From Tuwongella immobilis (GTDB taxonomy: Bacteria > Planctomycetota > Planctomycetia > Gemmatales > Gemmataceae), in contig NZ_LR593887.1 of assembly GCF_901538355.1 (NCBI RefSeq), forward strand, positions 1,712,920 to 1,776,919: DNA of 64,000 nt, read 5' to 3'. This document shows, one piece after another, positions 53,397 to 64,000 of the stretch. Below the pieces are notes generated by a model. It saw only the letters and a program-made list of their open reading frames with translations. It was not told the DNA's origin and made no database searches. The position numbers were made by a program, and so were the translations under genes. Each line of letters opens with the position of its first letter. Position 1 is the first letter of the stretch.

Positions 53397-56300
53397 TCAA
53401 TTGCCGAGAGGTGATTCGCTCGTCGTTTCGCGGAGATCGAACTCGCGGATGGCGGCCCAGACATCGCGATCCATGCGGCGACGCACCCGATATTCGTCCT
53501 CATCCAACCAGCGACGCACCGTGGGACCGAGGTTGAAATCTTCATTCACAATCGACCGCACCACGGTTTCCACAAACATCAGCGTCGGCAGCGTGTAGTG
53601 GGTGTTCGTGGTGCCAATGAGCTGAGTGTTTCGCAAGCGTTGGAACAGATCGTCGAGTCGTCCCAACGCCACGCGGATCGGCGCTTGGCTGAGCGCGGTG
53701 ACGTAATGAATCGCCAGCCACGTTTGGTCCAATCCCTCCAGTGATTGATTCAGCAGCAGTAATTCGCGAGTCAAATCCAACACCTGCATCGCCGCATCGT
53801 CTTGTTTCTGAGCAAACCAGCCGGTGGTCAGCACCAATAATGATCGCAGGGTGATCGGCCAAAGATCACCCGATTGTTGGCGAAGTTGCGGCAACGGTAA
53901 ATTCCGAGTGATCCACGGCTCCAGTGTTTGCATCAACCGTTCGCATTCTGCCAATTGCGCTGTGCGCCGCAGCGAGCGCAGCATCAGCCAGTTCAACGCT
54001 TGGAATTCCTCAGTTTCCAAGTCCCGTCGTGGATACCGGAACAATCGCAGCAGGTGGCGATTGAATTCCGGCAGTCGGCCGGATTGTCCCATGGCGATGG
54101 CTGCGGAAATCGCCCGTTCCAGCAGACGAATTTGCAGCGTCGCCGATCCATCGAGCCGCTCCACGGCGGATTCCACCAGTCGCAGCGCTCGCAGGGCTAA
54201 CCCTTCGGAAATGCGAGGCAGCAATTCCAAGATCGCTTGCAACACTTGCGGCAACACCGCGGCCGATTCCGGGGAGTGGCAGCGATCGAGCAGTTGCGTG
54301 GCGTTGTCTGTCAGCGTTTGCGAATCGAGGGTATCCGGCAGATGCCGCAGTGTGGCGAGCATCGGCGTCGGGTCGGCATAATGCCGGGTCATCGCCGCTC
54401 GATACGCATCGATCCGTTCCACGGGCTCCAGAATCCGCGAATGTTCCCGAAGTTTATCGACTTTGTAGCGTTCCTCATCCGGCAATTCGAGAATGCGATG
54501 CAGCAGATCCATTGGCAGCGGGCCGGAATTGGTTTTCCCTTCTTGCACCTGCTGAATGCGGAAATCAAAGGCAAAATACAGCAGCGAATGCACCCGATCG
54601 TCTTTGTGCAGTAGTTGTCGCGCCTGCTGTCGCAGGGCATTGCAGGCGTTGTGTTCGCCCAATCGGGCCAAGCCCCACGCCAAAATCAGGTCGGTGAAAG
54701 CCCGAGTGGCGTGAAGATCGGGATCGAGTCCGAATCGCTGCAAATGCGATGCGTGGTTCGGCAATTCGGGATTGGCGCCGGTCGCGCGGGGTTGCGAGGT
54801 CTCGTGAATCCAACGGCGAATCGGCTCCCGAATCCGCATCATCCAATCCCGGACATCGGTGTAGCGATCGCTGACCCCCCGCGAGGCGAACCGCAGAAAC
54901 GACGGCACATCCAAATCGAGGCTAAATCCGTGCTTTTTCAGCCGATGCATCAGCCGATCGCGGGTGCGTGCCAGACTCAGCAGATCGCCGCGAGTCAGCC
55001 GCATCATCGCCATCCGCGTCAGCCACACCGCGCGAATCGGCAGCCAATTTTCGTGCTGATCGAGATAGCGCTGAATTGCGGGGAGCAGTTCGCTCAACTC
55101 ATCTGGCTGCGATTCGATCAGCGAAATCCACACCAGATACGCCGCGATACTGCGTGCGCGGGCGGGGTTCGGCACCGCCTCCATCCAAGTGCGAATGGAG
55201 GGCGTTTCGGCAAGATTTCGCCCACGAGTCCGAGCATCGCGTTCGACCACGCCCCGAACCTGCCGCGATTCCGCTTGCAACCAGCCCCATGCCCATAAAT
55301 GCGTCAGTTGCGATTGCTCCCAGAGGGCGTTCAACCAGCAGACGGCGGAATCCCCTGCGAGGTTGCTGCGGCCATACATCGCGGCCAATTCCGGCCAGAA
55401 TTCGAGCATTTTTTGCGGGTCGAACTGTTCCAGCGACTCCAAAAATCGCGTCTCCAGCAATTGACGCCGCGAGGCCAGATCCGACAAGCGATCCGGTTCC
55501 ACGAACGCTTCGACTGACCCGGAATCGGTCTTTTTCCGGCTGACGAATGTGCTGATCGACTCGGTAAGCGTCGGCGGGGGCAATTCGCTTTCCGACTGGC
55601 GGTCGGCGGGTTGATTGGTAGAGCGATCGCCGATCGCAGGGGGCGTCGTTAGTCGGGAGAACATGCGGGCAAAGCGTTCCCAAAATCGCGGCGGTGCGGG
55701 CGGGATTGCCGGCGCGGGCGATTCCGGCAGCGTCACTCGACCCGATTCCGTGGTGACGGCGGTTTGCGGTGCGGTGGCCGGCGACCATCTCGACCGCGTC
55801 GCGGGCTGTTCCACCCGCTGGAAAAATGGCAGATCGTCCAGAAACGCCGTCCCCGATTCCGAGATCGCGTGCGACCGCACCGGTGGCAACGAATATCGAA
55901 CGTGGCTGAGAATCGGTTGGAATGCCTGCGTGGGGATGGATTCGATTCGGAAGCCGCCTTCCGTCGTGGGCATCAGCCAGATTGTCCGTACCTGATCCAC
56001 ACCCAGAAGCGAGCGGATCACGTCGCGTCGCAGAATCGGGGTAAGTCGCATCCCACTGGGAACAAACACGTTGGGGAGTTTCAGCAGGCCGGTGAATCCC
56101 TGACCGGATTCCGGTAGCCACACCAGCGGCTGACGCGGCACGCGCAATCGCAGCAGCAACCGCCACCCGCCATCGGGACGCGCCGACCAGGCGAAATTGA
56201 GCCGCGACAGCGTCCATTCTTCCATCGAATCGGCCATCGCATGCAGATGATGCTGATCCGCACAATCGATGACCCAAAATTCGGGGGAACTCGTGGCTGT

Positions 56301-57008
56301 GGTCGGAATCAATCGCAGCGGGTGCTGCATGCGAAGCGGGGCAGGGTGATCGCGCAGCGGCGGCTTGCGCGCGGGAAGTGGTAGGGGGTCGCTGGTTGCG
56401 GGCAAAAACGGCCCACGCGGAATCGTCCGCCAGCGATCCGACCGTTCCAGCACCAGCACCGCATCATCCGGCGGGGAAAGCTGATTTGCCAGCGGATGCG
56501 CCTGATTCAGCGGCACCCAGACATCGGGCACCTGCTCATGAAAAATGCGCACCGGGGTGAGTCGGTCGTGCAGTCGGCCGAGCAGAAATTCGGGCAATCG
56601 CTCGACCAAAAGCCAGCCCATTTCCGCATCGGGTTCCACCCAGCGAAAGCCGATGCGCTGGGGGGCAAATCGGCGGAGTTGGCCGATGATCTGCGGCATT
56701 TCCGAGATGGGAATTTCCAGCATCAGCGGACGCGGAGTTGGGCCGACATACGGCGTCAACGGAATCAGTTGCTGCCAGCAGGAAATCGGTTGCAGCATTT
56801 CGCTGGCACTGGAGCCAAGCACCCGCACGCCGAATCGCGTGAGCATGGTGACGAGATCCCGCGACAAGGGGACTTCCGGCCGCAGCCAGATTCGCCCCTG
56901 GGCGTCGCGTCCCGCTGATGCCGCGCCGCGCGTGATCGCCAGCGGGACAACCCCCGTGGCGAGTGCCCGACGCAAGGCATCTGGTTCGGGAAAGCACAGC
57001 ACCGGCAT
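53397..57008 (-). CDS. large cassette protein of unknown fold, paralogue of the 1140-aa protein
   Basis: 1203 aa from ATG 57008. I do not recognise a named family. It aligns by eye over most of its length with the 1140-aa product two genes upstream: N-terminal LRRALATGVVP, VWVPLNQAHPLANQL, KLPNVFVPSGMRLTPILRR, a central WPELAA...CWLNALWEQ region, RAVWLTRMAM...DRLMHRL...FLRFA, and a C-terminal RRWLDEDEYRVRRRMDRD. The C-terminal half is helical and may be repeat-like (TPR-type). A Pro-rich linker lies near 460-560. No transmembrane segment or catalytic motif is seen. It is the last gene of the cassette. Confidence 0.8.
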   Translation of the reverse strand: MPVLCFPEPDALRRALATGVVPLAITRGAASAGRDAQGRIWLRPEVPLSRDLVTMLTRFGVRVLGSSASEMLQPISCWQQLIPLTPYVGPTPRPLMLEIPISEMPQIIGQLRRFAPQRIGFRWVEPDAEMGWLLVERLPEFLLGRLHDRLTPVRIFHEQVPDVWVPLNQAHPLANQLSPPDDAVLVLERSDRWRTIPRGPFLPATSDPLPLPARKPPLRDHPAPLRMQHPLRLIPTTATSSPEFWVIDCADQHHLHAMADSMEEWTLSRLNFAWSARPDGGWRLLLRLRVPRQPLVWLPESGQGFTGLLKLPNVFVPSGMRLTPILRRDVIRSLLGVDQVRTIWLMPTTEGGFRIESIPTQAFQPILSHVRYSLPPVRSHAISESGTAFLDDLPFFQRVEQPATRSRWSPATAPQTAVTTESGRVTLPESPAPAIPPAPPRFWERFARMFSRLTTPPAIGDRSTNQPADRQSESELPPPTLTESISTFVSRKKTDSGSVEAFVEPDRLSDLASRRQLLETRFLESLEQFDPQKMLEFWPELAAMYGRSNLAGDSAVCWLNALWEQSQLTHLWAWGWLQAESRQVRGVVERDARTRGRNLAETPSIRTWMEAVPNPARARSIAAYLVWISLIESQPDELSELLPAIQRYLDQHENWLPIRAVWLTRMAMMRLTRGDLLSLARTRDRLMHRLKKHGFSLDLDVPSFLRFASRGVSDRYTDVRDWMMRIREPIRRWIHETSQPRATGANPELPNHASHLQRFGLDPDLHATRAFTDLILAWGLARLGEHNACNALRQQARQLLHKDDRVHSLLYFAFDFRIQQVQEGKTNSGPLPMDLLHRILELPDEERYKVDKLREHSRILEPVERIDAYRAAMTRHYADPTPMLATLRHLPDTLDSQTLTDNATQLLDRCHSPESAAVLPQVLQAILELLPRISEGLALRALRLVESAVERLDGSATLQIRLLERAISAAIAMGQSGRLPEFNRHLLRLFRYPRRDLETEEFQALNWLMLRSLRRTAQLAECERLMQTLEPWITRNLPLPQLRQQSGDLWPITLRSLLVLTTGWFAQKQDDAAMQVLDLTRELLLLNQSLEGLDQTWLAIHYVTALSQAPIRVALGRLDDLFQRLRNTQLIGTTNTHYTLPTLMFVETVVRSIVNEDFNLGPTVRRWLDEDEYRVRRRMDRDVWAAIREFDLRETTSESPLGN

Positions 57009-57070
57009 GGTTACTCGACCCCTGTTGACGCACCTGGCACGCTTCGGCATGCGAGCCAAGCGGGTGCGGG

Positions 57071-57943
57071 TTATGGTCCCCAGGTTTCTCGCACCCATTC
57101 GCGGATTCGTTGGCCGCGACGCTCTTCGACGACGATAGCCCGTTCCAGCAGACGGATTTGATCCGCCATCGCCGACGTGCGCTTCTGCACATCCCGATGC
57201 AGGCGTTCGACATCGCGCTCCGCATCGCTGAGCGCCCGCGATTGGTCTTTCACCCGACGATAGGCCGTGGTCAATTCATCGTCGAGATCGTCCAGACTCC
57301 GCTGCAATTGCGAGAGTTGCTGATGGAATGCCCGCAATTCTTTGCCTTTTTCTTTGAGATATTCCAGATTCGTCTTCTGGGCCGCCTGCCACAATTGCAG
57401 TCGTTCGCGGGCCATCTGCGGCGATTTCAGCAACAGTTCGGGCGTGAGTGCGAGTTTCGCTTCGGTCGATTCCGCAATCACGCCAATGGGCAACGTCACA
57501 ATTGGCTTGAGGCGATCCTCCAACTCGCGCGGTTCGCGGTCGAGTTTGGCATTGCGAAGCGATTGGGCCAGAGATTGGGCCAAGCGTTCGGCACCGGGCA
57601 AATCGCGCCGCCGATCGACGCATTCGATCACCGCTTCTGCCTGTTCGGTCCAGGTCTCCACCTCCCGACGAAACTTGTCGGCCCAGCGGCTGACTTCCCG
57701 GAATTCCGGTTCTTCATCGTCGATGGTGTCGGAAAATTGTTTCGGTTCCAAGGCCGGATAGCGTTCCGTGACTCGTTCGAGCGATTCGCGGAATCGTTCG
57801 AGTCGCTGTTTGGCGGCCTGCAATTCCAATTCGCTGGGTTGGGCGAACGGTTGGGCACGGAGCGCGGCCACCCCGATGCCGCCTGAGCATACCACCGCAG
57901 GCACCAGCAACCCCAACAGGGCCATTCGCCATCCAGACGGCAT
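57071..57943 (-). CDS. membrane-anchored coiled-coil protein of the FtsH-like cassette
   Basis: 290 aa from ATG 57943 (GGAG 8 nt upstream). An N-terminal signal anchor (MALLGLLVPAVVCSGGIGVA) is followed by an almost entirely charged, helical protein with heptad-like patterns, strongest in the C-terminal ~110 residues (LDDLDDELTTAYRRVKDQ, DVERLHRDVQKRTSAMADQ). No domain recognised. Anchored by its N-terminus, the coiled coil would lie outside or along the membrane. It sits between the two large paralogues with gaps of 88 and 62 bp. Confidence 0.75.
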   Translation of the reverse strand: MPSGWRMALLGLLVPAVVCSGGIGVAALRAQPFAQPSELELQAAKQRLERFRESLERVTERYPALEPKQFSDTIDDEEPEFREVSRWADKFRREVETWTEQAEAVIECVDRRRDLPGAERLAQSLAQSLRNAKLDREPRELEDRLKPIVTLPIGVIAESTEAKLALTPELLLKSPQMARERLQLWQAAQKTNLEYLKEKGKELRAFHQQLSQLQRSLDDLDDELTTAYRRVKDQSRALSDAERDVERLHRDVQKRTSAMADQIRLLERAIVVEERRGQRIREWVRETWGP

Positions 57944-58031
57944 GGGCAAAACTCCGTGGGGGCAGAATCGCCCCCGAGAAGAGATCCGACGCGATTGGTG
58001 CCCACGCGCTTCCGGGGCACTCGATTCCGGC

Positions 58032-61000
58032 TTATTCGCTTCCGCTGAGCCGCCGCCGCATGTCGCGGTGGATTCGGCGACGCACCAGAAATTCATCTTC
58101 GTCCAACCAACGGCGAGCATTCGGCCCCTGGGTGAATTCATCGCTGACAATGGAATTCACAACATCTTCGATAATGTTCAAATGCAACCGGGAATAGTAG
58201 GCCGACGTCGTAAAGCTATTCGTCAGCGGTTGCAAACGCTTGAACATTTCTTCGAGTCGGGCCAAGGTCGTCTCGGCGGGCAACCGCGAAAGTGCGGCCA
58301 CATAGGCGCGGGTCAACTGGGTGTAGTGCAATGGCTGCATGCGTGGCTGCGAGACGGCCGGCTCGAACAGCATATGCCGGGCTTCTTCCATCACCGGTTC
58401 CGCCAGTTCGGCGCGACCCGAATCGATCCACCCGGAGCCGAGATACAACAACGTCCGCACCATCTGCCAGGCGTTGGTTGCTTCAGCTTTGATGACTTGA
58501 TCCACGGGCCGATTGTTGAGAATCAGCGTTGAAATCTCGTCGATCATCGCTTGGGCTTGATCGCGCAACCCCAACCGTCGCAGATTCCGCAGACAATCCC
58601 CCGCCACCCGGTTGATCATCTCGGCACGATCCGCGGTCGGACGGCCTTTGAGCATGTGCAGGAAACGGTTGCTCAAATCGCGGACGACATCGCCTCGATC
58701 GTACAACGCCGAGATGGTCATGCCGCGTTCCAGCAGATTGCACTGGCTTTCGATGGCGTTGGTTTCGTTGGGCTGAACGGGGGCGACCAAGGTTTCCGGC
58801 ACAAATTGCAGCAGCGACAGCGCCAACTCTTCGCCGACTCGCGGGACAATCGCCAGCAGTTGCGTGAGCAAGTATCGCCGGGTGCTGATGGGCTGATTCG
58901 GCTTCAGCCCTTCTGCCACCAGTTGCGTAACGCGATGCTTCAGCACTTCCGGCTGGCGAATGTCGGGCAGTTCGTCGAGCATTCGCAACAGCGGATCGGT
59001 GCGGTGGAAGATGCGGCGATACGGGTCGAATTTCTCCGCCGGCTCCAGAATCCGCGACTGTTCCAACAACCGATCAATGGCGTAGCGTGGCACCTTGTCG
59101 ATGCGTTCCAGCAGCGTGAGCAACTCGTTGGGCAGCGGCCCTGTCGCCGGGCGACCCGCGAGTACCTGATCGATGCGATGCCGGAAGGCTTCGGAGAGGA
59201 ACTGATGCACCTCGTCGCGACCACCAGCGGGATGCCGTCGCAGCGCCAGGGCATCACTGGCCCGCGTGAGCAGTTGGCGAGCCAATGTCGTTTCGCCGAC
59301 ACGGGCTTGACCATAGGCGAACATGAGATCAATGTACGAACGATTGGCCTGCATCGTCGGTTCTTCGCCGTTCCAACGCAGCGCCAACGTGTGGAGCGAC
59401 TCCAGTCGATCATGCACCAGCCGCGCTCGGGCACTGTCTCGCAGCCCCGCAAACCGCAGGAAGGTGGGCATGTCCCGTTCTTGATTCAACCCTTCTTCGT
59501 GCAGTCGGGCGATGAGTCGGTCCCGCACTCGGGCGAGGGTGAGTTCGTCTTGATACGACAACGCCATCCAACTGAGCCAGACAGCGCGGACACCCAGTCG
59601 CGTTTCGTTCATCTCCAGATATTGCGTCAATTTCGGCAACCGCTCCCGAATCACCGGGGAATTCGGCTCGGTCGCCATTGCATAGAGAATCTGACCGACG
59701 AATTGACGCAATTCGGACGCCGTGGGCGAACTTCGGGCCAACAGGCGATCGAGTTCCCCGGCAGTGACGGTTCGATGGGCGTGCGGATTTTCGCTCAGCA
59801 GCCAGGCCCACAATTCCTCAGCATCCGGCTGCTTGGATTCCCAGAAACTGTTGACCCAACAGAGCGAGGCATCGGACGGCTCGCGCAATCCGGCGTTGAT
59901 TTTCGCTAACTTTGGCCACAGCGCCAATCGTTCGGGGGCATCCAACGACCCTTCGATGTCGAAGAATTGTTTTTCCAGATCATCCCGTTGCAAGCGCAAT
60001 TCTGATGGCGTTTGTTGGACCATTTCCGCGTTAAATTGCGGATCTTGCCCTGCGGATTTGCGGGATTGTTGCGCGCGCCGGGCGGTAATCGCACCCGCGT
60101 CGGGAATGACTTCGGGGTTGCCTTCGAGTCGGTCCGCGCTATCCGATTTCGACTTGCGACCACTGGGCGGCTTTGGCGAGCCGCTCGATTCTTCGGGGCA
60201 TTGGAACGACTCAAACTCGAACTGCATCGCCTGCATCCAACTGGTGAGTTGCTGGCGCTGATGATCGATGATGTAGTTGATCCACTCTTCCAGCGGGCGG
60301 AACGCCTCATCGGGCAGACTTTCCGGCACAAACACGCCAACTTTGTTGCCTTCGGCTTCCTTTTCGGGGAACAGCCAGACGATGCGGCTGGGGTCTTCGG
60401 CGAGCAGTTGCCGCACCTTCTCCCGGCGGAGCGTCGGCATCAGCCGAGTCCCCACGGGCAGGAACAGATTCGGCAGCTTCCAGAACGGCTTGAATCCCAG
60501 CGCATCGACCAGTGCCAAGGTGGGCGGCGGCAGTTTCGATGGCCGCACGCGCAGGATGATCGTCGGCGATCCAGTGTCGTCATGCGTGACCGCAAAATTC
60601 AGCCGAGCCAGGAGTTTATCCTCGGCGTCGCGCACCAGCGTATCCAGTTGATCGACCGCATTGCGACGAAGAATCCACATCTCGGGAAGATCCGCGGCGT
60701 TCCCGGCAGCCAGGCGCAGCGGCACCTGCATCGGGGATTCCAGCTTGGCCTCTTCCCATTGCACGGTCTCCCCGGCGATGGGGAAATCGACGATTTCGTA
60801 AATGTCGTGGAATGCGGTATTTTCCAGCACCATCCATTCGCGTGGTGCCCGCAGCAACAGCATCTGCCCTTCGGCGGGGCGGAGTTGGTCGGCCAACGGA
60901 TGGTTGAATCCCAGTTCGACCCAGACGCGCGGCGCGCGTTCGATGAAGGCGCGGATCGGCCCGGTGCGTTTGCCGATGCCGCCTTCGGTGGCCCGCAGCA

Positions 61001-61454
61001 GCGAATAATATGGTGGCCCAATCACCCGCAGCAGCACGCGCTCGCCGGCTTGCGGTTGGGCGTCGGTCGGTTGCAGCCAGCGATAGCTTTGACGATCGTT
61101 CCCCAATCGCAGCATTTCGCTGACGAGGCTCGGAAGTTGTTCGGTGGCCGAGACTTCGAACAAGACCGGCGATTGATTGTTCAATTCCGGTGGGTGCGGA
61201 TCGGCGACAACGGGTAACGCCTGAATCCAGCAGGTGACTTCCTGCGTGGGGCCGACGTGGTCTTTCACCGATTGCACGCCAAACTTTTTCAGCGTGGTCG
61301 TGAAATTGCGGGGCGGTGTGACCGAGGGTTCGATGGTCGGAACTCCGGTCTCGGAGAAGCTCACCGTCGCGGCGGCGAGGCTCACCGTCGCGGGAACGAC
61401 GCCGCTGGTCAGGACCAATCGAAACGTATCCAGATCCGGAAACTGAACGATCAT
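58032..61454 (-). CDS. large cassette protein of unknown fold, paralogue of the 1203-aa protein
   Basis: 1140 aa from ATG 61454. The N-terminal ~400 residues are mixed alpha/beta (VWVELGFNHPLADQL, KLPNLFLPVGTRLMPTLRR), then a basic/Ser-rich linker (SGSPKPPSGRKSKSDS), then a long helical half (WPKLAKINAGLREPSD, CWVNSFWES, RAVWLSWMAL, FLRFAGLRDS) ending in RRWLDEDEFLVRRRIHRD. The same motifs occur in the 1203-aa product, so the two arose by duplication. There is no Walker motif, no transmembrane segment and no protease motif. Its place directly after the FtsH-like protease and small protein suggests a scaffold, sensor or substrate-recognition role (inference). Confidence 0.82.
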   Translation of the reverse strand: MIVQFPDLDTFRLVLTSGVVPATVSLAAATVSFSETGVPTIEPSVTPPRNFTTTLKKFGVQSVKDHVGPTQEVTCWIQALPVVADPHPPELNNQSPVLFEVSATEQLPSLVSEMLRLGNDRQSYRWLQPTDAQPQAGERVLLRVIGPPYYSLLRATEGGIGKRTGPIRAFIERAPRVWVELGFNHPLADQLRPAEGQMLLLRAPREWMVLENTAFHDIYEIVDFPIAGETVQWEEAKLESPMQVPLRLAAGNAADLPEMWILRRNAVDQLDTLVRDAEDKLLARLNFAVTHDDTGSPTIILRVRPSKLPPPTLALVDALGFKPFWKLPNLFLPVGTRLMPTLRREKVRQLLAEDPSRIVWLFPEKEAEGNKVGVFVPESLPDEAFRPLEEWINYIIDHQRQQLTSWMQAMQFEFESFQCPEESSGSPKPPSGRKSKSDSADRLEGNPEVIPDAGAITARRAQQSRKSAGQDPQFNAEMVQQTPSELRLQRDDLEKQFFDIEGSLDAPERLALWPKLAKINAGLREPSDASLCWVNSFWESKQPDAEELWAWLLSENPHAHRTVTAGELDRLLARSSPTASELRQFVGQILYAMATEPNSPVIRERLPKLTQYLEMNETRLGVRAVWLSWMALSYQDELTLARVRDRLIARLHEEGLNQERDMPTFLRFAGLRDSARARLVHDRLESLHTLALRWNGEEPTMQANRSYIDLMFAYGQARVGETTLARQLLTRASDALALRRHPAGGRDEVHQFLSEAFRHRIDQVLAGRPATGPLPNELLTLLERIDKVPRYAIDRLLEQSRILEPAEKFDPYRRIFHRTDPLLRMLDELPDIRQPEVLKHRVTQLVAEGLKPNQPISTRRYLLTQLLAIVPRVGEELALSLLQFVPETLVAPVQPNETNAIESQCNLLERGMTISALYDRGDVVRDLSNRFLHMLKGRPTADRAEMINRVAGDCLRNLRRLGLRDQAQAMIDEISTLILNNRPVDQVIKAEATNAWQMVRTLLYLGSGWIDSGRAELAEPVMEEARHMLFEPAVSQPRMQPLHYTQLTRAYVAALSRLPAETTLARLEEMFKRLQPLTNSFTTSAYYSRLHLNIIEDVVNSIVSDEFTQGPNARRWLDEDEFLVRRRIHRDMRRRLSGSE

Positions 61455-61518
61455 GCGAGTCGATCCGTCCTAGGTACGAAATCGCGGGGCATCGGCGACC
61501 ATCCCCGCGGGGCATCCA

Positions 61519-61788
61519 TCAATTGCCTTGATCGGCGGCTCGGCGTTCGCCTTCCGGGCCGCTGCTGGTCGGGCTGGCGGGCTGCTTTTGCGATTGTTCG
61601 CGTTCGACAACCACCTTGCCCACATCGTCCGCATTCAGCACACCTTGTCCAACCAGTTTTTCGACGAGTTGACGGTGCATTTCTTCGTGTTCATGCGGCA
61701 ACGCATCCTCATCCGAACGCAAGCTGATATGAATATCTTGCTTGCCCGTAGTCGGGTCGCGCCGCAGGGATATCGTTAATTCGGCCAT
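61519..61788 (-). CDS. 89-aa acidic protein of the FtsH-like cassette
   Basis: 89 aa from ATG 61788, with AAAGGA 7 nt upstream. An N-terminal beta stretch (AELTISLRRDPTTGKQDIHI) with acidic residues leads to HEHEEMHRQLVEKLVGQG and a disordered Gln/Pro/Ser tail. No family recognised. It lies 44 bp after the protease gene and 64 bp before the 1140-aa gene, so it is probably co-transcribed. Confidence 0.7.
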   Translation of the reverse strand: MAELTISLRRDPTTGKQDIHISLRSDEDALPHEHEEMHRQLVEKLVGQGVLNADDVGKVVVEREQSQKQPASPTSSGPEGERRAADQGN

Positions 61789-61832
61789 GAGCAATTCCTT
61801 TGTGCAGGCAAGGGGTGCGATGGTCGGCCGGG

Positions 61833-64000
61833 TTACGATTTACCCACCGGCTCGACGGCACCCGAAGTCGCGGCATCTGCGGCAACGGAAGCCGGAGCAG
61901 GTTCCGACTTCGAGTCGGCGTCCTTCTTATTGCCCCCGGTCAGTTCGGACAACACCCTGGCATCGATGGTCTTCTTTTCGATCAGCAAATCTCGCAGGGT
62001 TTTCAACAGCGGCAGATTCTCTTTCAGAATCTTCGTGGCTCGCAACCGCTGTTCTTCAATCACTTCGCTCACCGTGCGATCGATGTAGGCCAGCAATTCC
62101 TGCGACAATTCGCGGCGCTCCCCGGTGCGCGGCGAGCGGAATTGTCGCAGACCGAGTGTGCCCCCGCCCATGCCGAAGATTTCGACATACATGTGGGCCA
62201 AATCGGTGGCACGGGCCAAATCGCTGCCCGCCGCCCCGGTGCTGACATCGTCCAACAGCAATGCCTCGGCTTCGCGTCCGGCCAGCAGAACGCATAAGTC
62301 GTCGAGAATTTGATTGCGGGTGAGTCCCAATCGACGCGAACCATCGTCTTTGAATCGCACATACGCCGGTGCCCACGAGGTTTCCGAGCGAATCGTGATG
62401 CGATCGACGGCTGGGTGATTGGGGCAAAACAGCGCACAAACCGCGTGACCGCCTTCGTGAGTGGCCAGCAATTGTTCTTCGCGGGTCGTCAGGTCGAGCT
62501 TTTCCTGATATTCCGAGGTGGCGCGGTCGATGTCGTCCGGCGTGGTCGCATCGGACTTATTTTCGCGCAACCGAATCCGAGCGATCGACCGGCAGAGTGC
62601 CTGCAAGTGGTCGCCGGAATACCGCGTGCCCGCCGCCGCACCTTCAACTTGGCCATCCGTATGCTTGACGGCATAATCCAGGGCCGCTTCCGTCATTTGC
62701 AGCTTCATGCGTTCGTTGTAGATCTGCAAAATCGCCCGGCGATCATCGTCATCCGGGTACGGAATGTGCATATGAAACTCAAAGCGACCGGGCCGCAGCA
62801 ACGCCGGGTCGAGACTTTCGACAAAGTTGGTCGTGCCGACGATGAATACGAGTTCGTCTTTGTGAAAGCCATCCATTTCGGTCAATAATTGGTTGACCAT
62901 GGAATGCTCGACGCCGCTGCCGGTGTACGTCCCGCGTGCGGTGGCGAAGGAATCGATTTCGTCGAAGACGATGATCGACGGTGCCGATTGCCGGGCCTTG
63001 TGGAAGATCTGCCGCAGATTGTCTTCCGATTCGCCGACCCATTTCGACTTCAATTCCGGTCCGCTGACAACGGTGATCGCGGCACCAATCGCGGCGGCCA
63101 TTGCCTTGGCGAAGTAGGTTTTGCCGGTCCCCGGCGGTCCCCAAAAAATCATGCCGCGGGGAATGAGTTCTTCCAGCCGAGCGATTTCTTCCTCGGTAGT
63201 GGCGGTGTCGCGGCGAGCCAGCACGTCGAGGATTTCCTGGCGAAGTTGTTTCTTCACCTTGGTGTAACCGCCGATATCCTTTTCCAGGCTAATATCGGGG
63301 ATTTCGAGCGCCCCGGTGAGGGTGGCTTGTCGCAATTGCTGGTAACTGCGCTTGGGATCGGCGGGGTAGTCCTCGCCTTCCAGCGTGGAGAGCAGCTTGC
63401 GGAGCTTCAGCGCGTTCACGCCCGAGACGTACTTGTACAACGCCCAGGGGTTGAATTGTTTGCCGAACTTGCGACTTTCTCGCCGGGTAATCAGATGCCG
63501 CAATCGATTGCGCGAGATGCCGAGAATCGCCGTGCGATGCGTAAACAGATTCTCAATCACCTTGGGCAACGGGAATGACGGGTCTTTGAACCCCAGCCAG
63601 ACCAATTCGGGATTTTCGTATAGCAGGGGGATGACCTCGCGCGCTTCGGCGGTGAGTCCCCCTTGACTGGTGGTGAGCAGGTCGAGGTGCGGCAACACCA
63701 CGACGCGACGTTCGACGGCACCGCGCACCGCTTCCCGCAGTTGCGAAATCATGGTGCCAATCAATCCGGTGGGCATCATTCCGTTGGGCTGTTCGGTCTC
63801 GCGGGGGCGACCGTCCAGGTAGATGCAGCGGATATTATTTTGACGAAGGCGATCGCGCACATTCAGGAACAAAAACGGTGCGAGATCCTTATCGCATTCG
63901 ATTAAGCAGGGCAGACCGCGTTGCAGTTTGGAGGCGACCTCGGCCAGTTCGCGGCTGTAGGCGGCCTCCACGGCTTGTTCGCGTGTCAGGGCTTCGGGAA
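61833..64000 (-). CDS. soluble FtsH-like AAA-M41 metalloprotease, 5' end cut by the window edge
   Basis: At least 721 codons; the frame is open to the right edge, so the start may lie outside (GTG at 63971 is only a candidate; positions are counted from it). Residues about 20-160 look like a degenerate AAA domain: VVVLPHLDLL in the Walker B place and FTHRTAILGI later, but no Walker A. A complete AAA domain follows: GPPGTGKT (278-285), IIVFDEID (333-340) and the second region of homology with RPGRFEF. The M41 peptidase has HEGGH (505-509) and the third zinc ligand Asp584 in AGSDLARATDLA. No transmembrane helix is visible, unlike normal FtsH. First known gene of the five-gene cassette. Confidence 0.9.
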   Translation of the reverse strand, partial: PEALTREQAVEAAYSRELAEVASKLQRGLPCLIECDKDLAPFLFLNVRDRLRQNNIRCIYLDGRPRETEQPNGMMPTGLIGTMISQLREAVRGAVERRVVVLPHLDLLTTSQGGLTAEAREVIPLLYENPELVWLGFKDPSFPLPKVIENLFTHRTAILGISRNRLRHLITRRESRKFGKQFNPWALYKYVSGVNALKLRKLLSTLEGEDYPADPKRSYQQLRQATLTGALEIPDISLEKDIGGYTKVKKQLRQEILDVLARRDTATTEEEIARLEELIPRGMIFWGPPGTGKTYFAKAMAAAIGAAITVVSGPELKSKWVGESEDNLRQIFHKARQSAPSIIVFDEIDSFATARGTYTGSGVEHSMVNQLLTEMDGFHKDELVFIVGTTNFVESLDPALLRPGRFEFHMHIPYPDDDDRRAILQIYNERMKLQMTEAALDYAVKHTDGQVEGAAAGTRYSGDHLQALCRSIARIRLRENKSDATTPDDIDRATSEYQEKLDLTTREEQLLATHEGGHAVCALFCPNHPAVDRITIRSETSWAPAYVRFKDDGSRRLGLTRNQILDDLCVLLAGREAEALLLDDVSTGAAGSDLARATDLAHMYVEIFGMGGGTLGLRQFRSPRTGERRELSQELLAYIDRTVSEVIEEQRLRATKILKENLPLLKTLRDLLIEKKTIDARVLSELTGGNKKDADSKSEPAPASVAADAATSGAVEPVGKS

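Follow-up and report, generated by a model that had tools for sequence, protein, structure and literature searches.

A probable FtsH ternary system with dispersed MoxR and vWA partners in Tuwongella immobilis

FtsH ternary systems were described from sequence and genome context and labelled conflict systems by Kaur et al. (2020, PMC7159879). In that account, a conflict system is recognised by lateral transfer and by erratic presence between close relatives. The simpler subtype has a stand-alone radical-SAM enzyme modifying a peptide effector, or NEFF1, and the complex subtype has a beta-propeller vWA protein, EAD1 domains and a JAB/E1/E2/E3 set; an inactive N-terminal AAA domain was reported for the FtsH proteins (Kaur et al. 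2020, PMC7159879). Physical linkage of the component genes is how ternary systems were found, and is not a property of the proteins. In the literature, MoxR-vWA pairs are also known as assembly chaperones. Our literature search returned no experimental study of FtsH ternary systems, and none on their function.

The window, a 64,000-nucleotide stretch of the chromosome of the planctomycete Tuwongella immobilis (Gemmataceae), holds five minus-strand ORFs running from position 53397 to beyond its end at 64000, with spacings of 62, 88, 64 and 44 bp (Table 1). The start codon of the last, a 732-residue protease, lies at window coordinate 64031, 31 bp past the end. An earlier note on this DNA had described a five-gene cassette. 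All five genes and their gaps are real, but the protease is not the first gene: fvmX5, fvmX6, a radical-SAM enzyme and an RNA 3'-phosphate cyclase precede it in the same direction, and an FAD oxidoreductase and an AAA ATPase lie further upstream. The block kept together here is radicalSAM-X6-X5-FtsH-X3a-X7a-(coiled coil)-X7b. Scans for terminators and promoters gave results near chance level.

Table 1. Features of the cassette in window coordinates.
Feature	Position	Strand	Remarks
X7b, fvmX7 paralogue b, tandem second copy	53397..57008	-	1203 aa; PF20005 E 2e-52
Coiled-coil protein with N-terminal hydrophobic segment, between the X7 copies	57071..57943	-	290 aa
X7a, fvmX7 paralogue a, predicted scaffold	58032..61454	-	1140 aa; PF20005 E 1.5e-97
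X7a N-terminal alpha/beta domain, residues 1-410	60225..61454	-	AlphaFold2 model; evolution tracks vWA helical domain
X7a alpha-solenoid, residues 475-1140	58035..60032	-	AlphaFold2 model; terminates in conserved RWLDEDEYLVRRRIHRD-type stretch
X3a, fvmX3-analog	61519..61788	-	89 aa; PF20002 E 2e-32
X3a EHExxH motif, residues 33-38	61675..61692	-	E, H, E, H identical in 62/62 homologues
Soluble FtsH-type AAA-M41 protease	61833..64000 in window	-	AAA E 1.8e-41, M41 E 3.1e-31
Protease Walker A GPPGTGK, residues 298-304	63120..63140	-	invariant, 48 homologues
Protease M41 zinc site HEGGH, residues 525-529	62445..62459	-	H525, E526, H529 invariant, 48 homologues
Protease D604, candidate third zinc ligand	62220-62222	-	also invariant

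The accessory proteins identify the locus. Five accessory X-domain proteins (fvmX7 twice, fvmX3-analog, fvmX5 and fvmX6) match Pfam "FtsH ternary system" domains far above cut-off; of these, fvmX5 and fvmX6 lie beyond the window. The earlier note had likened the N-terminal halves of the two giant proteins to ternary accessory domains, and rightly so: in each giant it is this half that matches PF20005 (fvmX7). The match of the 89-aa protein is to PF20002. It was also right that the giants are paralogous (about 30% identity over the whole length; E 2e-74 C-terminally and 1e-42 N-terminally) and that, among the five, no protein other than the protease shows a recognisable enzyme activity. In profile searches the giants matched no housekeeping family. 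Judged by these domain matches, the cassette is almost certainly that part of an FtsH ternary system which contains the protease, the subtype being the one with helical-N vWA and radical SAM. Given the Pfam matches and the published description (Kaur et al. 2020, PMC7159879), the suggestion that the system is undescribed does not hold. What is new here is the dispersal of its genes with retained co-evolution, the ancient X7 duplication, the often-adjacent RNA 3'-cyclase gene and the invariant EHExxH in X3a.

The closest described relative is subsystem 3 of PMC7159879 (FtsH ternary MoxR-vWA, helical-N vWA plus radical SAM), with which the T. immobilis system shares FtsH, a MoxR with a TAKS P-loop, an ivWA protein with a helical N domain, a radical-SAM enzyme, the X3-analog, X5, X6 and X7. 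It differs in that neither MoxR nor ivWA is linked to the FtsH cassette, two X7 copies stand in tandem with an orphan coiled-coil gene between them, the RNA 3'-phosphate cyclase gene is adjacent, and a variable effector was not seen. With the beta-propeller ternary systems (subsystem 4, PMC7159879) it has in common a MoxR that, in relatives, matches the bpMoxR model PF20030, and a weak match of X7a to bpX2 (E 0.05); however, no beta-propeller was found on the vWA protein and there is an FtsH component. Scans of the cassette proteins showed no beta-propeller vWA, EAD1 or JAB/E1/E2/E3 ubiquitin-like conjugation set.

The earlier note had proposed looking for MoxR and vWA genes upstream of position 64000. 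They are absent locally, but each is present as a single copy elsewhere on the chromosome. The MoxR gene lies at genome position 1599168-1600166, about 166 kb from the cassette (E 1.1e-189), and its P-loop, GPPGTAKS, fits GxxxTAKS. The ivWA gene lies at 1555605-1556111, about 210 kb away (PF19997, E 8.5e-45); with the helical N region included in the profile, the match spans 478 aa of the protein, and the ivWA proteins of relatives match both PF19996 and PF19997. In other planctomycetes the full order is radicalSAM-X6-X5-FtsH-X3a-X7-MoxR-ivWA, contiguous and complete in two relatives (L176 and L180) and near-complete in a third (L205), with FtsH, MoxR and vWA physically linked in all three. 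The T. immobilis genome therefore has a dispersed version of the system, and searches that demand neighbouring MoxR, vWA and FtsH genes would miss Gemmataceae genomes of this type. Several neighbours of the dispersed partners were ruled out as components: a PP2C-like gene next to ivWA, which occurs in 1/30 ivWA loci, and likewise the MFS and repeat-protein neighbours of MoxR. In 13/30 loci, ivWA is adjoined by a gene that has no Pfam match.

The fact that MoxR and vWA do not adjoin the cassette might suggest that its five genes belong to some other, undescribed system, unrelated to the ternary systems and merely resembling them. We regard this as refuted and hardly credible: five separate Pfam FtsH-ternary models are matched far above cut-off, relatives carry full operons, and the partner genes show both co-occurrence and co-evolution. 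Gene order is conserved in dozens of planctomycete contigs, which excludes chance. Among genomes with X7, ivWA is present in 37/37 and MoxR in 35/37, against 1/9 of the X7-negative family members tested; the radical-SAM enzyme and X3a also co-occur with X7. Moreover, trees of MoxR, ivWA and X7, which are mostly unlinked, correlate beyond RpoB, with partial rho of 0.93 for ivWA-X7, 0.69 for MoxR-X7 and 0.68 for MoxR-ivWA; a UvrC control gave 0.23-0.27, and 0/2000 permutations reached the observed values. With fast-evolving genomes dropped, the correlations are weaker yet persist (0.81, 0.50 and 0.50, respectively). The X7 N domain correlates more strongly with the vWA helical domain (0.84) than one half of X7 does with the other (0.59). 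Tree co-evolution does not prove contact. That unlinked parts evolve in step argues that they work together in trans, and the linked evolution of the cluster is strong by both measures.

Whether this is a conflict system is a separate matter. Kaur et al. classify such systems in this way (2020, PMC7159879), and an anti-phage or cell-suicide role would have fast-evolving X7 and vWA modules sense infection, upon which MoxR and FtsH would release or degrade a regulator and an effector peptide that the radical-SAM enzyme has modified would then act. In agreement with this, X7 and ivWA diverge at three to four times the rate of RpoB, some family members have lost the system, and the RNA 3'-phosphate cyclase gene is often adjacent to the cassette in relatives' loci. 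In other systems, there are links between RNA repair and conflict. However, lateral transfer and erratic presence were not what we found for X7 in the family. Across 36 family members its presence pattern takes 5 changes, compared with 8.9 in shuffles (minimum 6), so that most of the inheritance in the family is vertical; the system is single copy, and no X7 was found in plasmid or phage collections. Nor did we see an exchangeable effector among the conserved genes, and PADLOC gave only generic AAA and coiled-coil matches and one marginal radical-SAM match. We consider a conflict function unlikely; our confidence in an immune role is lower than in the mechanism proposed below. With a single, mostly vertical and partly dispersed copy in the Gemmataceae, the conflict label can be put to a direct test in an organism that is cultivable.

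The mostly vertical inheritance, the single copy and the lack of plasmid or phage records suit a lineage-specific proteolysis machine, the alternative raised in the earlier note, at least as well. Such a housekeeping machine might serve proteolysis or complex assembly, for example in membrane or cofactor-enzyme maturation, with MoxR and vWA acting by analogy like RavA and ViaA and FtsH clearing misassembled subunits. The RavA-ViaA comparison, made by literature description, extends to the logic of a MoxR AAA+ with a vWA co-chaperone, which here is tied to a protease and to giant proteins with a solenoid. The assembly-chaperone role known for MoxR-vWA pairs, the intact soluble protease, and a GRE-activase-like radical-SAM enzyme suggestive of cofactor or radical chemistry are all consistent with this. 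On the other hand, the system is absent from about 11/37 family members, so it is not essential in the family, and for parts of a housekeeping complex X7 and ivWA change quickly. We rate the housekeeping reading at slightly under even odds.

The best explanation overall, to which we assign a probability of roughly 0.6, is a split FtsH ternary system in which X7 would serve as a scaffold presenting a target or complex, MoxR and vWA would remodel it, and soluble FtsH would degrade it. As a mechanism, which we put forward tentatively, the two X7 proteins would act as alpha-solenoid scaffolds, either recognising a target or holding a complex that is inactive. Docking on X7, most likely with its helical N domain against the N domain of X7, the vWA protein would recruit MoxR, which would remodel the assembly using ATP. 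The released protein would be fed to a soluble FtsH hexamer and degraded, with X5, X6 and X3a as possible adaptors and the radical-SAM enzyme modifying a component of the system. The output would be regulated proteolysis or controlled disassembly.

The X7a AlphaFold2 model (pLDDT 85) has a scaffold-like solenoid. Foldseek with this model gave no match below E 0.001, and VIA-align rows fall mostly on residues 553-1113 with Z of about 12, a range usual for helical repeats, and hardly cover the N domain, for which we claim no new fold. Most second X7 copies fall in one old clade; by this phylogeny the duplication is evidently ancient. The coiled-coil protein between the copies has no homologue in 58 related genomes or in the cassette loci, and is an orphan insert rather than a core part. 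Its weak ZorA and MCE matches look like coiled-coil noise.

The radical-SAM gene carries CxxxCxxC and is NrdG-like; its product is a putative enzyme of the NrdG/PFL-activase type. For X3a, the predicted model is poor (pLDDT 57) and sequence searches found no solved relative. Its C-terminal Gln-Gly was considered as a glycyl-radical or Pup-like tail and rejected: only 36% have QG close to the end, and other components, too, commonly carry Gly close to the C terminus. It is a long shot that EHExxH marks a minimal metal-binding or metalloprotease-like subunit, or a substrate for the glycyl-radical-activase-like radical-SAM enzyme, in a non-immune, vertically inherited, in-trans Gemmataceae proteostasis machine; if true, this would link radical chemistry to proteolysis. 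For mutagenesis, concrete residues are available from the invariant EHExxH motif, from the co-evolution signal between X7 and vWA, and from the protease site, which is intact.

In the protease, Walker A and Walker B are invariant in 48 homologues, and the M41 site is complete in T. immobilis and intact in all homologues. With housekeeping FtsH (TIGR01241) it shares the AAA and M41 domains, GPPGTGK, HEGGH and the third Asp ligand, but it scores 265 bits, below the cut-off of 600, and its N-terminal 240 residues form a different conserved region. These residues lack a P-loop, and the libraries searched gave no match and no solved relative for them. An hhalign comparison with the active AAA domain places the Walker B region in register, at a probability of only 0.7% (E 0.078); statistically, this does not recover the inactive N-terminal AAA domain described for such FtsH proteins. 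Other M41 genes are present in the same genome.

The cassette comprises five minus-strand genes separated by 62, 88, 64 and 44 bp, as the earlier note had described, and the protease ATG lies 31 bp past the end of the window (genome positions 1712920-1776919 of a single contig of 6,690,754 bases). Pfam assigns fvmX7 to both giant proteins (X7b, E = 2e-52; X7a, E = 1.5e-97), fvmX3-analog to the 89-aa protein, X3a (E = 2e-32), and AAA and Peptidase_M41 to the protease (FtsH), which bears out the suspected resemblance to FtsH ternary systems. Upstream of the window, the cassette extends with fvmX5 (5.9e-73), fvmX6 (8.3e-103) and a radical-SAM enzyme, beyond which lie an RNA 3'-terminal phosphate cyclase, then a FAD oxidoreductase and an AAA ATPase. 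Because the Pfam descriptions of the fvmX domains name the FtsH ternary systems described by Kaur et al. 2020 (PMC7159879), the cassette is a known kind of system and not the undescribed one that had been proposed. In that paper function was predicted from context, and literature searches found no later work following it up.

MoxR and vWA are defining parts of ternary systems (Kaur et al. 2020, PMC7159879). The earlier note had proposed looking for both genes upstream of position 64000; neither adjoins the cassette in this genome. In relatives, a MoxR with a GPPGTAKS P-loop comes after X7, followed in some by a divergent vWA protein with a helical N domain (ivWA). T. immobilis carries each gene once: a MoxR of this type (E = 1.1e-189) lies ~166 kb and an ivWA (E = 8.5e-45) ~210 kb from the cassette, both among unrelated, non-conserved neighbors. 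At 13 of 30 ivWA loci (e.g., L093, L095, L104 and L108), a neighboring gene on the opposite strand has no Pfam match.

Dispersed or not, the parts are inherited together. We examined 37 X7-positive genomes (26 in the family Gemmataceae, one in the class and ten in the phylum); ivWA is present in all 37 and MoxR in 35. Within the family, fvmX7 occurs in 26 of 37 members, this genome counted, and it is rare outside. X3a and the cassette-type radical-SAM gene are each found in 24 of the 26 X7-positive members, X3a in 0 of 11 negatives, and MoxR plus ivWA in one of nine X7-negative members tested. That one, G025, also has the radical-SAM gene, with X7 and X3a undetected, reflecting either an assembly gap or partial loss. 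On the RpoB tree, the family presence pattern takes 5 changes, compared with a mean of 8.9 and a minimum of 6 in 300 shuffles.

Correlational evidence for co-evolution came from tree distances in 21 genomes, where the genes are mostly unlinked. Corrected for RpoB, the correlations were 0.93 for ivWA-X7, 0.69 for MoxR-X7 and 0.68 for MoxR-ivWA (UvrC control, 0.23-0.27), and 0.81, 0.50 and 0.50 with the fastest genomes removed. The X7 N domain correlates at 0.84 with the vWA helical domain and at 0.59 with its own C-terminal half. Taking the RpoB rate of divergence as the unit, X7 and ivWA stand at about three to four, FtsH at ~1.5 and MoxR at about one. Our reading of this pattern is that an ATP-driven engine is conserved while its recognition modules change fast and match each other. 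The speed at which X7 and ivWA diverge is consistent with the biological conflict role that Kaur et al. proposed for these systems (PMC7159879). The data do not, however, agree with the criteria given in that paper, namely lateral transfer, patchy occurrence and exchange of effectors, and X7 is absent from the plasmid and phage collections searched; a lineage-specific proteolysis or assembly machine accounts for the data at least as well.

FtsH should be active as both protease and ATPase, since 48 homologues conserve the GPPGTGK and FDEID-type Walker B motifs together with the M41 residues H525, E526, H529 and D604. Its N-terminal 240 residues have no P-loop, and their in-register alignment to the AAA Walker B region lacks statistical support. 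In X3a, whose structure model is poor (pLDDT 57), E-H-E-x-x-H is identical in 62 of 62 homologues, among which no further residue is fully invariant; this suggests a putative metal or catalytic site, with no third ligand assignable. The radical-SAM enzyme, with an invariant CxxxCxxC, is nearest to NrdG and pyruvate-formate-lyase activating enzymes. The AlphaFold2 model of X7a (pLDDT 85) shows an alpha/beta domain connected by a disordered linker to an alpha-solenoid of ~665 residues, with structural matches to generic HEAT-type solenoids. Beyond the established part set, intact motifs, co-inheritance and correlated evolution, we infer that the X7 scaffolds would bind a target or hold a complex, that vWA would dock on X7 and bring MoxR, and that ATP-driven remodelling would pass the target to soluble FtsH; the radical-SAM enzyme may modify a component of the system.

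Second copies of X7 group in what is essentially a single clade, which also takes in some X7 genes that occur singly at other places in related genomes; the duplication is therefore old. No homologue of the coiled-coil gene that separates the two copies turned up among 58 related genomes. A third, lone fvmX7 in this genome has no other cassette gene nearby.

Gene order was compared in 60 named contigs found by X7 profile; homologous contigs belong to Gemmata, Zavarzinella, Limnoglobus and further planctomycetes. Throughout the analysis, genes were called by simple ORF rules, and the relatives include many gapped metagenome bins, some of them doubtfully named. The order radicalSAM-X6-X5-FtsH-X3a-X7-MoxR-ivWA is contiguous in two (L176 and L180), and Gemmata- and Fimbriiglobus-type contigs usually show RNA cyclase-radicalSAM-X6-X5-FtsH-X3a-X7a, often with X7b added. 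In 16 of the ~24 contigs that have the radical-SAM gene, the cyclase (RtcA-type) is the gene immediately upstream of it, an arrangement on which the main text of Kaur et al. 2020 (PMC7159879) is silent; the adjacency may reflect a tie to RNA repair, or merely a common promoter.

Coordinates of cassette-related features (L, locus or contig)
Feature	Position	Strand
X3a EHExxH	window 61675-61692	
MoxR, GPPGTAKS type	genome 1599168-1600166	
ivWA	genome 1555605-1556111	
Third fvmX7	genome 2720616-2721791; L050:9114-12467	
RNA 3'-terminal phosphate cyclase, own genome, upstream of window	L006:4777-5841	-
Cyclase-radical-SAM adjacency, relatives	L152-L156, L159, L161, L163, L164, L167, L183, L184, L188, L193, L195, L203	
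P-loop protein and 69-aa ORF, planctomycete bin	L073:3308-4106	

The fvmX7 cassette genes of L204, titled Bifidobacterium breve and probably a mislabelled bin, and L207 (uncultured proteobacterium) are close kin to each other. In one planctomycete bin, the cassette is interrupted between its FtsH and X3a genes by a 199-aa P-loop protein and a 69-aa ORF; judged by eye, the former looks like a zeta-type toxin.
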